DNA of 61,578 nucleotides, taken from assembly GCA_937867305.1 (NCBI GenBank), contig CALMKJ010000025.1, positions 76,196 to 137,773 of the forward strand. Reading direction: 5' to 3'. The notes under the pieces are model-generated. The model was not told where the DNA came from, did not search any database, and worked only from the letters and a program-made list of their open reading frames with translations. Below, piece by piece: positions 3,264-37,518 of this stretch. Source of the stretch: an uncultured Ectothiorhodospiraceae bacterium. Its GTDB lineage: Bacteria; Pseudomonadota; Gammaproteobacteria; JAABTG01. A program made the translations under genes and the position numbers. Each line of letters opens with the position of its first letter. Positions within the stretch are counted from its first letter, which is position 1.

Positions 3264-3988
3264 GCGCGGCAGGGTGGAGGGCAGGGTGCCGCACGAAACC
3301 ACCCTTCGCGGGGCCAGATGCGCTGCCACACCTCCCCGCGCCCGCCCGGGTCGCTGACGGCTTCGAGGAGTGGCCCGGACGGCGGTGCGACGAGGAAGGC
3401 CGAAACGGCGGCCAGATAGGCGGCGAGCGTCGCGGCCGGTCCCCGGCGCGACCAGAGCTTGAGCGCGCTCCCGAGGGAGCGGCGGGTGCGGGCCCCGAAG
3501 AGATTGACGCTGTAGACCTCGTCGAGCAGCAGGTGGACCAGGTAACCGAGTGTGACGAAGGCCCCGGCCGTCCAGGCTGCAACGGCGGGTGTCCCGGCGC
3601 CCCGGTGCGCGGCTGCGGCTGCGGCGAGGCCGAAGAAGACGGCGGCCGGGACCGAGTGCAGCATCCCCCGGTGCACCGTCACCCGGGTCAGCAGGGCGAA
3701 GAGGGCCCAGCGCGCGAACAGGAACGCGGCGACCCAGAGAAGCACCAGTTCGGCGACCGTCGGGAAACGCTCCGCCAGCAGGAACATGGCCAGGAAGGCG
3801 AGTGCCGCGGCGGCCAGCGTGAAGCTCGCGCGCACGGGCGCCGACCCGTCCGCGTCCAGGTCCGGCAGGAGCGAGCCGAGTGTCCCGAGTGCCAGGTAGG
3901 CGAGGGTCTCCCCGGGCGTGGCGAGCCCCCCCACCAGGGCGGTGGTCGCGGCCAGGCCGCTCGCGGCGAGACCGACCGAGAGATGCAC
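3206..3988 (-). CDS. DUF457/YdjM-like membrane-bound metal-dependent hydrolase
   Basis: The frame encodes four to five hydrophobic helices and the family landmarks of PF04307 (DUF457): HLSVGLAASG near the start, GTLGSLLPDLDAD, HRGMLHS and HLLLDEVYSVNLFG. The conserved His/Asp residues are taken as a putative metal site; E. coli YdjM is the known relative. The start is unresolved. The frame stays open to 4207 and contains no ATG near the expected N-terminus. GTG at 3988 is the most N-terminal start keeping the first conserved His, and CTG 4042 or GTG 4090 are alternatives. None has a good ribosome site. The C-terminal 19 codons overlap the convergent hydrolase gene. Confidence 0.75.
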   Translation of the reverse strand: MHLSVGLAASGLAATTALVGGLATPGETLAYLALGTLGSLLPDLDADGSAPVRASFTLAAAALAFLAMFLLAERFPTVAELVLLWVAAFLFARWALFALLTRVTVHRGMLHSVPAAVFFGLAAAAAAHRGAGTPAVAAWTAGAFVTLGYLVHLLLDEVYSVNLFGARTRRSLGSALKLWSRRGPAATLAAYLAAVSAFLVAPPSGPLLEAVSDPGGRGEVWQRIWPREGWFRAAPCPPPCRAQRTRAERMTSMWARGSEK

Positions 3989-4058
3989 GGAGAAGGCGGC
4001 CAGGGCCAGGTCTCCCGAGACTGACGTTTCTCTCGAGAGCAGGCTCCCGAGGCAAGTT

Positions 4059-4068
4059 CTACATGTAG
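4059..4068. promoter_or_regulatory. Perfect 10-bp palindrome in a divergent AT-rich intergenic patch
   Basis: CTACATGTAG is a perfect palindrome at the edge of an AT-rich patch (about 4056-4100) in otherwise GC-rich DNA. It lies between the minus-strand DUF457 gene and the plus-strand thioesterase gene. Such a site could bind a dimeric regulator or be part of divergent promoters. No regulator is identified, and chance is a fair alternative. Nothing else is recognised between 3989 and 4221. Confidence 0.25.
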
Positions 4069-4221
4069 TTATCGCAGAAAAATCTAGCACAACATCATGA
4101 GGGATGCCGAGCGGGGCCCGCAGGTTGCACTGGCGGCGTGTCTTCGCGGCCGGGCCGGGGCTATGATGGTGGCGTGGGGCGGGACGCCCCGCGGGAAGCG
4201 AGCCCACTGGAGGGGGCGACG

Positions 4222-4752
4222 ATGGAGACTGCGCGCAAGGATGCCCGGGCCTTCGAGGTCCACATTCCGCTGACCGTCAAGACCTACGACGTCGACTTTT
4301 CGGGGGTCGTGAGCCACATCACGTACCTCCGATGGCTCGAGGACTTGCGGTTGCAGATGCTGGCGAGCCACCCGCCGCTGCAGTGGCAGGTGGACGGGGG
4401 AGGTGTCCCGGTGGTGGCCCGTACCTCGGTGCACTACCGCGCCCCGGTCAGCCTCGGCCAGGCCCTCCGGGGAAGCCTCTGGGTGAGTCGCGCGGGATTC
4501 TCCCGCTGGACCCTGTCGGCGGAGTTCAGTTCGGGCGGGCTTGTCGTCGCCGAGGCGCTGCAGTCCGGTTGCTTCCTCGACCGGGACACGCGGCGCCCCG
4601 TCGCCTTGCGCCAGGAGATCCGGGAGCGGGTGGCTGCCCCGCGGCGGACCGCGCCCCCGCCGGTCTCCTGTGACGAGGCCGGCCCGCCCGGGCGGCGTGG
4701 CTGGCGCGAGTTGATGGCTGTGCGCGCCGGTGCCGTTGCGGCGGGGCGCTGA
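4222..4752 (+). CDS. Acyl-CoA thioesterase-like (4HBT hotdog-fold) protein
   Basis: A 176-residue protein whose first 130 residues match the 4-hydroxybenzoyl-CoA thioesterase hotdog family: VKTYDVDFSGVVSHITYLRWLEDLR corresponds to the YxDxDxxGHVxNxxYxxxxE core, followed by strands with VHYRAPV and EAL. The usual Asp/His positions are partly altered (SGVVSHITY), so the substrate is uncertain. The C-terminal 40 residues are Arg/Pro/Ala-rich and look unstructured. ATG at 4222 has GGAGGGGG seven bases upstream, whereas the longer frame from 4138 has no support. The methyltransferase gene follows after 31 bases, likely in one transcript. Confidence 0.8.
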   Translation: METARKDARAFEVHIPLTVKTYDVDFSGVVSHITYLRWLEDLRLQMLASHPPLQWQVDGGGVPVVARTSVHYRAPVSLGQALRGSLWVSRAGFSRWTLSAEFSSGGLVVAEALQSGCFLDRDTRRPVALRQEIRERVAAPRRTAPPPVSCDEAGPPGRRGWRELMAVRAGAVAAGR

Positions 4753-33432: not shown

Positions 33433-34581
33433 TCAACGGGGCCGGGCGTAGTGCCGGCGCAGGACCTCTCGCGTGAAGGCGGTTCTCAGATAGAAACCGC
33501 GCGGGTTCGTCCAGACAGGGGCCCCGTCCTCGCCGACGCCTCGACAGAGGGTGCGCGAGCTCGCGGCCTTGGGACGCACTTGCAGGAAAGTACCGGTTCG
33601 TGCGGACAGCTCGCCGAGACGACCGAGACAGACCATCTCCATCAGCTCTTCCCAGTCGGCGCGCAGCGTTTCCTCCAGGTCCGGCTCCAGGGACCAGAGG
33701 AGGGGGCTGCCGATTCGGCGCGCCCCCACGGGGATCCCGCGGTCGGCCTCGATGGGCACCCAGAGCACCCGGGCCAGCTTGCGCCGGACCCAGCTGGCCT
33801 TCCACGTCTCGGCACACGCGCCCTCGAGAGGGACGGTGCAGACGTAGGTGGACTCGAGCGGTCCGCCGTCCCGTCCCACGGGCAGCGTCTTCAATTCGAT
33901 CCCCAGGGCCCGGAAATCGGGCTCGGCGAGGGAGCCCGCGTCCGCGCCGAGCCAGGCCTCGACCAGCTGCCCCGCCCAGCCCTTGGCGCGGCGCAGGTCC
34001 GGGGGTGCCTCGAGCCCGAATGCCCGGCCGAGCTCCTCGAGCCGCAGACCGGCCAGCCCCTCGGCCCGCTTCAGGAGCTCCCCCTCGGTGCGTGGCGCGG
34101 GTGCCGGGGCCGGGGCCGAGCCCTCCGTCGCTCGTGGGCGGCGCTCGCGGGAAGCGCCGTCACGCCGCGGGACCCAGCCCTGGACGTGTACCGTGACGGA
34201 CGCGGGGCCGGCGGTGGTGTCTCCGCCCACCAGCTCGAGCCCGGCCTGTGCCGCGAGCTCGAGGAGGGTTCCGCTGAAGGCCTCGACCCAGGCCACGTCC
34301 GGGGTTGGGAGGGTGATCGCCAGCGTGAGCCACGCGGGTGTCCCGCCGGCTGCCGCGAGCCCGGCGAGGACCTCCTCGAGCACCCCGTGGGCCCACTCGG
34401 AGGCGGGCGGCAGCCCGGAGTCCTGAGTCTCGACCGACCGGCTCGCCCCCGCGACCACCGCCTCGGTGCCGGGAGGAAGCGTCAGGACCGCGGCATCGTC
34501 CCCGATCCCGACGCGCACGTCCGCCCGCCGCCGGGACCGGTCGAAGTACCGCTCGATCAGGGCAAATTCGCTGAGGGACAC
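33433..34581 (-). CDS. ThiL-like N-terminal (AIRS) domain fused to MutH endonuclease
   Basis: A 382-residue fusion. Residues 1-140 align almost without gaps to the N-terminal domain of thiamine-monophosphate kinase: SEFALIERYFDRSRR, GIGDDAAV (25-32) and LVGGDTTAGP (118-126) are kept. The DTLVxGVHF stretch (here GASRSVETQD) and NLSDLAAMGA (here VLAGLAAAGG) are lost. An Ala-Pro linker (about 152-164) leads to a complete MutH (165-380) with Glu208, Asp222, Glu229, Lys231 and Lys268 at the spacing of E. coli E56, D70, E77, K79 and K116. MutH nicks unmethylated GATC in mismatch repair. No start codon exists in the linker, so MutH is only made as the fusion. GTG start at 34581. Confidence 0.88.
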   Translation of the reverse strand: MSLSEFALIERYFDRSRRRADVRVGIGDDAAVLTLPPGTEAVVAGASRSVETQDSGLPPASEWAHGVLEEVLAGLAAAGGTPAWLTLAITLPTPDVAWVEAFSGTLLELAAQAGLELVGGDTTAGPASVTVHVQGWVPRRDGASRERRPRATEGSAPAPAPAPRTEGELLKRAEGLAGLRLEELGRAFGLEAPPDLRRAKGWAGQLVEAWLGADAGSLAEPDFRALGIELKTLPVGRDGGPLESTYVCTVPLEGACAETWKASWVRRKLARVLWVPIEADRGIPVGARRIGSPLLWSLEPDLEETLRADWEELMEMVCLGRLGELSARTGTFLQVRPKAASSRTLCRGVGEDGAPVWTNPRGFYLRTAFTREVLRRHYARPR

Positions 34582-35180: not shown

Positions 35181-35837
35181 TCAGCCGTCTCGATCGAGAT
35201 TGCGAAAGAAGAGCCCCATGACGCGCTGCACGTAGGTCTGGGTCTCCTGGTAGGGAGGGACCTGGTTTCCGTGCTGTTCCACCGCACCCTCCCCGGCGTT
35301 GTAGGCGGCGAGGGCGAGCTTCAGGTTCTGGAAACGGTCCAGCAGTTCGCGCAGGTAGCGCACACCGCCGTGGACGTTCTGTTCCGGGTCCCAGGGGTCT
35401 GCCACCCCGAAGCGCCGTGCGGTCCCGGGCATGAGCTGCATGAGGCCCATGGCCCCAGCCCGCGACAGGGCCTCCGGGTCGTAGTTGGACTCCGCGGTGA
35501 TCACGGCGTGGACCAGTGCAGGGCTCACGCCCCAGCGCTCGGAGGCCTCGTGCACGAGCGGCGAGAATTCCCTGGAGCCGGACGAGCGCTTGCTCGCCGG
35601 GCGGGCCCGCAGGGCCGCGCGCGCCTCCGCCAGCCCCGTGGGCGCGGCGGGCTGTGCCTCCGATCGCATGAAGAGCTTGTACCCCGGGTGCGACGGCTTG
35701 TCCGTGAAGTGGACCGTGCCGCGCGGGTCCACGTAACGGTAGATGTCGGCCCGAGCCGGGGACGAGAAGAGAAAAAGGGCCACGGCGCAGCCGAAACCGG
35801 TCAGCGCGGCGGTGCGGAGAAGCCGGTTATCCACCAT
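35181..35837 (-). CDS. Lytic transglycosylase (SLT domain) with N-terminal DUF4124
   Basis: A 218-residue exported protein. The signal peptide is residues 1-30 (cleavage near ARA). Next comes a short DUF4124 segment (DIYRYVDPRGTVHFTDKPSH). From about residue 90 there is a C-terminal SLT goose-lysozyme-like domain: VITAESNYDPEALSRAGAMGLMQLMPGTARRFGV contains the catalytic Glu in AESNYDP, and LALAAYNAGEGAV closes the active site. It cleaves peptidoglycan, forming anhydroMurNAc ends. It is likely periplasmic. The 173-base region between it and thiL shows no gene. Confidence 0.92.
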   Translation of the reverse strand: MVDNRLLRTAALTGFGCAVALFLFSSPARADIYRYVDPRGTVHFTDKPSHPGYKLFMRSEAQPAAPTGLAEARAALRARPASKRSSGSREFSPLVHEASERWGVSPALVHAVITAESNYDPEALSRAGAMGLMQLMPGTARRFGVADPWDPEQNVHGGVRYLRELLDRFQNLKLALAAYNAGEGAVEQHGNQVPPYQETQTYVQRVMGLFFRNLDRDG

Positions 35838-36010: not shown

Positions 36011-37066
36011 TCACTCCCGACGGGGTGAAGCCGGTCCGGGTTTGAAGTGCTCGTAACCGTGGGGCACGGCCAGCGGTGCGCCGTCCGGGCCGTGACAGGC
36101 AAGGCCGGGCGTGACGACGATACGGCCGATCCGCGTCACCGGCACGCCGGCCTCTCGTGCCGCCCGGGCGACCTCATCCCCGCGCCCCGCGGGTGCCGTG
36201 AAGAGCAGTTCGTAGTCGTCGCCGCCCCCCAGTGCCAACCGCCAGCCGCTCACGGGGTCCAGCGCCGCGCGGAGGGTTTCGGAGAGCGGCAGGCGGGCGG
36301 CCTCGATCTCGGCCCCCACCCCGCTCGCGGCCAGCACGTGCCCCAGGTCTGCGGCCAGCCCGTCGGAGACGTCGATCGCCGCGCTCGCCAGCCCACGCAG
36401 TGCCAGGCCCAACGCGACACGCGGCTCCGGGCGGTCCAGCCGGTCCCGCACCCGCGCGAGGACTGCGGGGGCGTGCGGGTGTCGGCCCGAGAGGACCTCG
36501 AGGGCAAAGGCCGCGTCGCCCACGGTGCCGGACACGTACACATCGTCTCCCGCCTGCGCGCCCCGGCGCAGGATGGCTGCGTCGGCCGACACCTGGCCGT
36601 AGACCTCCACGGTGACCCGCACAGGGCCCTCGACGCGATGTTCGGCGACCTGGCGTACCCCGTAGCGGTCCGCCAGCCCTTGCAGCCCCCCCCGGAATTC
36701 CTCGAGCCACCGGGCGGAGGAAACGCCGGGCGGAAGTCCCTCGGACCCGCGGGGCGCCGTGTCGCCGGCAGCCACGGCTCCTCCCGAAGACCGCCGGGCC
36801 GGCGCCGGTAGGCTCAGCGCGACGCTGCAGGCCAGGGGGCCCGCACCCATCGCGGCCAGATCACTCAGGTTCACGGCGAGGGCCTTGTGGCCGACGGCGG
36901 CCGGGGCGGTGTCGAGGGGAAAGTGGACGCCCGCCACCAGCGTGTCCACGGCGACGACCAGCGCGGCACCCGGGGGCAGGCGGATGGTCCCCCAGGGGCG
37001 GGGCGCCTTCCGGCCGGCACCCGCCTCCGTCCCCTTTCGCGCGCCAGGTCCCCGGGGCCGGGTCAC
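36011..37066 (-). CDS. thiL: Divergent thiamine-monophosphate kinase lacking two active-site motifs
   Basis: A 351-residue protein after nusB, where thiL normally sits; its GTG overlaps the nusB stop (GTGA). DTLVAGVHF (41-49), KALAVNLSDLAAMGA (61-75), SGTVGDAAFAL, AIDVSDGLAADLGH (230-243) and GGGDDYELLF (280-289) are intact ThiL motifs. However, the N-terminal 30 residues are an Arg/Gly/Pro-rich stretch with neither EFxLIxRYF nor GIGDDAA. The VGGDTT motif is replaced (VRQVAEHRVEGP, 137-148), and a 30-residue insertion (about 88-118) interrupts the segment before it. The lost motifs bind Mg2+ and phosphate in ThiL, so activity alone is doubtful. No reading frame restores them. Confidence 0.8.
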   Translation of the reverse strand: MTRPRGPGARKGTEAGAGRKAPRPWGTIRLPPGAALVVAVDTLVAGVHFPLDTAPAAVGHKALAVNLSDLAAMGAGPLACSVALSLPAPARRSSGGAVAAGDTAPRGSEGLPPGVSSARWLEEFRGGLQGLADRYGVRQVAEHRVEGPVRVTVEVYGQVSADAAILRRGAQAGDDVYVSGTVGDAAFALEVLSGRHPHAPAVLARVRDRLDRPEPRVALGLALRGLASAAIDVSDGLAADLGHVLAASGVGAEIEAARLPLSETLRAALDPVSGWRLALGGGDDYELLFTAPAGRGDEVARAAREAGVPVTRIGRIVVTPGLACHGPDGAPLAVPHGYEHFKPGPASPRRE

Positions 37067-37518
37067 TCCGGCAGGGGACCTCCGGCCTCGAGCGGGCGCA
37101 GGTGACGTGCCAGCCGGTCGAGGGTCGCGTTGACGTAGCGGTGACCCTGCTCGGCGCCGAAGAGGCGTGCGATGTCCACCGCCTCGTTGAGGACCACGCG
37201 ATAGGGCACCTCGGGGCGTTGCGCCAGCTCGTAGGCCGCGAGTCGCAGGATCGCCCGTTCCACGGGGTCGACCTGGGCGAGCGGACGGTCGAGGAGAGGG
37301 GCGAGGTAGGCATCCAGCTCGCCGACGCGGGCCGGCACCCCGTGAACGAGCTCGTGAAAGTACTCGGTGTCCACCCGAGCCATGTCCTGCTCTTCCCGGA
37401 ACTGGCGCTCGATGTCCGCCGGCTCCTGGGCCGTCATCTGCCACTGGTAGACCGCCTGGAGCGCCGCGCGCCGGGCGTGTCGGCGGGCCTGGTGGCCGCG
37501 CCCGGCGGGAGACGTCAT
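37063..37518 (-). CDS. nusB: Transcription antitermination factor NusB
   Basis: A 151-residue all-helical RNA-binding protein: [18 protein letters not shown] at the start, [20 protein letters not shown] in the middle and [52 protein letters not shown] near the end are the NusB landmarks. It binds boxA RNA with NusE/S10 for rRNA antitermination. It is coupled by ATGA-type overlaps to ribH upstream and thiL downstream. Confidence 0.95.

Follow-up and report, generated by a model that had tools for sequence, protein, structure and literature searches.

The window, the whole 61,578-nucleotide stretch of DNA analysed here, contains one reading frame in which a ThiL A-domain (hereafter ThiL2) is fused to a complete MutH (Table 1). 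Judged from comparison with related genomes, the A-domain very probably serves as the ATP-binding subunit of a thiamine-monophosphate kinase that has been split into a heterodimer; MutH would be a translationally coupled neighbour that was later fused to it.

The earlier note had described a 382-codon frame that joins a ThiL N-terminal domain, a linker and a complete MutH, and open reading frame, Pfam, NCBIfam and PDB matches all agree with this description. In Pfam, the same chain matches AIRS PF00586 (residues 27-133, 47.3 bits, cut-off 24) and MutH PF02976 (residues 211-309, 99.5 bits, cut-off 23). Two MutH equivalog models of NCBIfam, including the NF003458 family, are exceeded (296.7 against 243 bits and 261.4 against 229.9 bits). 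The thiL model TIGR01379 matches residues 5-146 with 84.6 bits, under the whole-protein cut-off of 184.15, as expected because the A-domain is half a ThiL. PDB searches align residues 1-148 with ThiL 6xep (E 2e-22) and residues 156-378 with E. coli MutH 2azo (E 1e-71). Motif placement puts all five acidic and basic key residues of MutH (E208, D222, E229, K231 and K268) where they had been claimed. The lack of a separate start for MutH was also confirmed, as no in-frame ATG, GTG or TTG was found when codons 118-230 of the window fusion and codons 118-247 of its sister-species counterpart were searched. The fused MutH is the only one in the window's genome.

The same fusion was found in G001, a second species of the genus, as a 410-aa open frame with 92% identity to the window fusion. 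Between the two species, dN/dS is 0.146 for the whole fusion, 0.20 for the A-domain, 1.35 for the linker (24 codons) and 0.036 for MutH, which is the best-conserved portion.

Table 1. Features of the thiL2-mutH fusion gene and of the neighbouring thiL1 locus in the window. PaThiL, Pseudomonas ThiL.
Feature	Position	Strand	Basis and remarks
ThiL2A-MutH fusion gene	33433..34581	(-)	382 aa, GTG start; same fusion in G001
ThiL A-domain (AIRS, PF00586), residues 1-139	34165..34581	(-)	predicted ATP-binding subunit of heterodimeric ThiL; Pfam, AF2 model, PDB match
GIGDD loop, residues 25-29, kept	34495..34509	(-)	ATP side; PaThiL Gly28-Asp30; role from PMC13254938
GGDTT, residues 119-123, kept	34213..34227	(-)	ATP side; PaThiL Gly121-Asp122-Thr123; role from PMC13254938
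Ala/Pro-rich linker, residues about 140-161	34099..34164	(-)	no in-frame start codon; relaxed, dN/dS 1.35 over 24 codons
Complete MutH, residues 162-382	33436..34098	(-)	E208, D222, E229, K231, K268; dN/dS 0.036
Lytic-transglycosylase-like gene between thiL1 and thiL2-mutH	35181..35837	(-)	name by sequence resemblance only
ThiL1, two-domain ThiL without helix a1/strand b1 with GIGDD and without GGDT	36011..37066	(-)	alignment, AF2 model
ThiL1 Asp232 = PaThiL Asp211, DVSDG motif, kept	36371..36373	(-)	alignment
ThiL1 AEHRV, residues 141-145, at GGDT position: ATP-side motif lost	36632..36646	(-)	alignment
ThiL1 Asp69 = PaThiL Asp75, NLSD motif, kept	36860..36862	(-)	alignment
ThiL1 Asp41 = PaThiL Asp47, TMP/metal side, kept	36944..36946	(-)	alignment
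nusB, directly upstream of thiL1	37063..37518	(-)	canonical ribH-nusB-thiL order

The earlier note overlooked that the thiL gene 1.4 kb upstream of the fusion also encodes only half an enzyme. Its product, ThiL1, is the only ThiL proper of the window's genome and reaches 257.1 bits with TIGR01379 (cut-off 184.15). Its TMP and metal side is present (Asp47, Asp75, Asp211 and SDG in PaThiL numbering), and its ATP side, the GIGDD loop and GGDT, is absent. A search of all three forward frames, begun 500 nt upstream, found the lost motifs nowhere in place. Masking by a frameshift is ruled out, as no other frame within this distance carries GIGDD or GGDT. TIGR01379 thus passes a protein without a recognisable ATP side, and automatic annotation would name it a complete kinase. 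The lytic-transglycosylase-like gene also lies between thiL1 and thiL2 in L048, L055, L070, L089 and L098. Between NLSDLAAMGA and the next helix, the window's ThiL1 contains an additional segment rich in Gly, Ala and Ser (about 28 residues, about 91-118; 36713-36796, minus strand), which is missing in G001.

The fusion A-domain is eroded in a complementary way. It keeps EFxLI, GIGDD and GGDTT and has lost DTLVxGVHF and NLSDLAAMGA; the ATP side is represented by GIGDD and GGDT, and Asp47, Asp75 and the B-domain Asp211 of the TMP side are absent. The partition of residues was scored on an alignment of 11 ThiL1/ThiL2 pairs with 32 canonical ThiL proteins, using PaThiL numbering. Asp29/Asp30 and Asp122 are missing from ThiL1 in 11 of 11 cases, and Asp47, Asp75, Asp211, Ser213, Asp214 and Gly215 are present in the same proteins. 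All 11 ThiL2 proteins keep Gly28-Asp29-Asp30 and Gly121-Asp122-Thr123 and have lost Asp47 and Asp75; their invariant columns include E5 F6, G27 D28 D29 and G119-T123, and the B-domain is absent in 8 of the 11 genomes. Canonical ThiL proteins keep both sets of aspartates (32/32, with one Asn at position 122). The complementary pattern is found in every one of the 11 and, slightly modified, in two genomes of another family (f2).

Crystal structures give this partition a meaning. In PaThiL, one protomer holds AMP-PNP via Gly28, Asp30, Gly121, Asp122, Thr123 and helix a1, and TMP and metals are held by Ser45', Asp47', Asp75' and Asp211' of the other protomer (PMC13254938). ATP and TMP are likewise found on different protomers in A. 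baumannii ThiL (AbThiL; PMC6416309). Since each composite site combines the ATP side of one protomer with the TMP side of its partner, pairing ThiL1 with ThiL2 would restore exactly one full active site, and the other site would be dead.

AF2 models of the single chains fit these assignments. The fusion A-domain (pLDDT 84.9) is modelled with the AIRS N-terminal fold and the same order of elements as in the N-domain of PaThiL; among PDB structures it is most similar to P. aeruginosa ThiL 8yku (TMq 0.79). The ThiL1 model is a two-domain ThiL (pLDDT 86.2, TMt 0.86 to AbThiL 5cm7), in which residues 1-19 are disordered where helix a1 and strand b1 would be expected.

The 11 genomes with the pair (the window's genome, G001, G003, G004 and the MAG loci L047, L048, L055, L070, L089, L098 and L110) were gathered by a scan with the fusion plus genome-search loci; they are assemblies of mostly uncultured organisms, and most are MAGs. 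Among 369 genomes of the class, matches to the ThiL2 profile above 195 bits were confined to the window's family and to f112, whose three genomes are the OFTM MAGs L048, L055 and L070 already counted; the next matches were long ThiL frames. The f2 cases were found by inspecting genomes with a good ThiL match but no ThiL2-profile match. In two of them (G005 and G162), the nusB-linked ThiL is a ThiL1 that lacks GIGDD and GGDT, and a free-standing A-domain ORF with both motifs lies far from thiL1 (L247:3351-3959 and L246:421-831, respectively). Next to these ORFs are two genes named by resemblance, one for a DAHP synthase and one Sel1-repeat-like. A search of three f2 genomes detected no MutH. 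Asp30/Asp122 and Asp75 partition in f2 as elsewhere; the deviations in G162 are an Asp aligned at position 29 in ThiL1 and another at 47 in ThiL2, both in weakly aligned stretches. An AU test of one origin for all 13 ThiL1 proteins gave p 0.33, which is compatible with one origin as well as with two.

Several stages can still be seen among these genomes. ThiL2 is full length with an eroded B-domain in G003, G004 and L098, and the B-domain is absent in the other ten genomes. An A-domain-only gene precedes mutH in L047, L048, L055, L070, L089 and L110, lies away from mutH in f2, and is fused to MutH in the window's genus. In several relatives with separate genes, the stop codon of thiL2 and the start codon of mutH overlap or adjoin (GTGA, ATGA, TGATG), an arrangement that resembles that of translationally coupled genes.

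From these observations a likely course of events can be proposed. In the ancestral ThiL, a symmetric homodimer, one protomer would have contributed ATP and the second TMP together with most metal ligands to each of the two composite sites. Once the gene had been duplicated, the ATP side would have disappeared from ThiL1 and the TMP side from ThiL2, leaving the heterodimer alone with a complete site, one per dimer. The B-domain of ThiL2 may have become dispensable because the ATP side lies wholly within the A-domain. In the window's genus, the thiL2 and mutH frames appear to have been joined, where in most relatives the thiL2 stop and the mutH start overlap or are close together; the exact event we infer to have been a stop loss, with or without a frame change, combined with loss of the B-domain, which would yield the fusion. 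The fusion protein probably has two functions, with the MutH domain itself serving Dam-directed mismatch repair.

Five genomes of the family were tested for thiamine and mismatch-repair genes. ThiE was present in all five, and a search for thiamine pyrophosphokinase (TPK) found none in any of them. No second complete ThiL was recognised in the family, where the other AIRS proteins inspected were SelD, HypE and PurM; in OY282433.1, a single chromosome record of 5.1 Mb, nothing but ThiL1 exceeds the ThiL cut-off. Dam was found in 5/5 and MutL in 4/5 of the genomes; in the window's genome, Dam (167 bits) and MutL (370 bits, at a contig end) are both over their cut-offs. Because of this gene content, and because no other part of the fusion is as conserved as MutH, the MutH part is probably active.

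Other explanations have to be weighed against a split ThiL. The earlier note had proposed that the AIRS domain serves MutH, by dimerising it, by sensing ATP or by tying thiamine metabolism to mismatch repair. What stands of this interpretation is a real fusion of A-domain and MutH with its ATP-binding residues kept; the proposed roles are disfavoured by the comparison. They would fit the conservation of the fusion in two species, the presence of Dam and MutL, and the position of mutH, which is fused to or adjoins thiL2 in 11 of the 13 genomes. Against them, thiL2 stands as a gene by itself in 11 of the 13, two of which (f2) have no detectable MutH, it is always paired with a ThiL1 that has lost exactly the motifs ThiL2 keeps, and the linker evolves without constraint. 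We therefore regard a service to MutH as quite unlikely. Across genomes it is ThiL1, not MutH, that ThiL2 accompanies, so a ThiL function is the best explanation of the A-domain, and its separate occurrence in most genomes makes MutH most likely a fused neighbour and not the purpose of the A-domain. It is also unlikely that the fusion, in addition to its part in a split ThiL, physically couples TPP synthesis to mismatch repair, such that ThiL1 binding or the ATP/TMP state alters MutH activity; if it did, an essential metabolic complex would hold MutH or regulate it.

Alternatively, ThiL1 alone could work via a changed ATP site, with ThiL2 only a regulator or structural partner. Its score above the TIGR01379 cut-off and its place as the nusB-linked orthologue speak for this, but the GIGDD segment and the Asp122 ligand are lost from ThiL1 in 13 of 13 genomes, and ThiL2 keeps both without exception, which makes this explanation very improbable. 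Nor is it at all probable that both copies are decaying in cells that import TPP or use another kinase. The erosion of the ThiL2 B-domain does look like a decay series, but both halves are under purifying selection, with dN/dS values well below 1 (0.14-0.41 for ThiL1, 0.11-0.45 for the ThiL2 A-domain). In the 11-genome set, ThiL1 and ThiL2 form one clade each, with the same five sub-clades in both, and functional residues are invariant over these divergent sub-clades; in addition, ThiE is kept, and the same complementary pair is found in 13 genomes.

The probability of an assembly or binning artefact is negligible, for although the assembly of the window's genome consists of 222 contigs and has 4.1% contamination, the same fusion, in the same frame and with the same linker position, is present in the independent sister species on a 744-kb contig, and the complementary pair recurs in the 13 genomes. 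The earlier note had stated that separate full-length thiL and mutH genes at this place in close relatives, if found, would point to such an artefact. Separate ThiL2 and mutH genes were indeed found there (L034, L035, L098, L048 and others), but the joint is inherited, as its presence in the sister species rules out an assembly error.

The proposed split, heterodimeric ThiL can be compared with several known systems. With ThiL (TIGR01379; P. aeruginosa 8yku/8yks, A. baumannii 5cm7/5cc8), the pair described here has in common the fold, the A- and B-domains and the nusB linkage of ThiL1, and all active-site residues are matched when ThiL1 and ThiL2 are pooled. Known ThiL enzymes, however, are homodimers with two identical sites, whereas in the pair the two substrate sides, ATP and TMP, belong to different gene products, one of which is fused to MutH in this genus. 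The MutH part likewise agrees with known MutH (PF02976, NF003458) in its complete domain, its five key residues and the presence of Dam in the genome, and differs in that a ThiL A-domain precedes it and that it lacks a separate start. Metazoan mitochondrial SerRS2a/SLIMP is also a homodimer turned heterodimer, in which one subunit lost a domain and the active site of the other was ablated (PMC10570016); there the enzyme is another one, and in ThiL the losses are complementary halves of one composite site. Deoxyhypusine synthase of trypanosomatids is duplicated and has active sites at the interface, and both paralogues are needed although one is catalytically dead (PMC3663545); it differs in that one dead copy activates the other, without a full partition of two substrate sides. 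In both precedents, duplication turned a homomeric enzyme into a heteromeric one. In the open-access literature searched, we found no heterodimeric ThiL or ThiL paralogues, no description of a ThiL-MutH protein and nothing relevant on MutH fusions.

The pair appears to be a natural case of a homodimeric enzyme with composite sites that was divided between two genes, substrate side by substrate side. A full-length eroded copy, a free-standing half and a half fused to an unrelated enzyme are all still visible, and complementary degeneration after duplication becomes directly testable in a small and well-understood enzyme.

A few observations concern single assemblies. No ThiL above the cut-off was found in G002 (window's family) and G272 (f2), probably because these assemblies are incomplete. 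A search for MutL in G001 (98% complete) found none, although the MutH fusion and Dam are present; in the window's genome, MutL is in pieces on two contigs (G000 C90:6-800 and C112:2706-3452). The same genome has two near-equal ThiE matches (G000 C94:2412-2993 and C163:5042-5623), possibly due to a strain mixture (contamination 4.1%), and G001 has one above the cut-off. Further short ORFs with a ThiL A-domain in genomes of the class were considered as additional splits and rejected: those in G358 and G160 are at contig ends, that in G169 has a run of N, and that in G060 belongs to a canonical ThiL with a frame change. The G060 protein is encoded in two overlapping frames (L207:3241-3810 and 3725-4252) with the break between the A- and B-domains, which is probably a frameshift or sequencing error, unlike the ThiL1/ThiL2 split.
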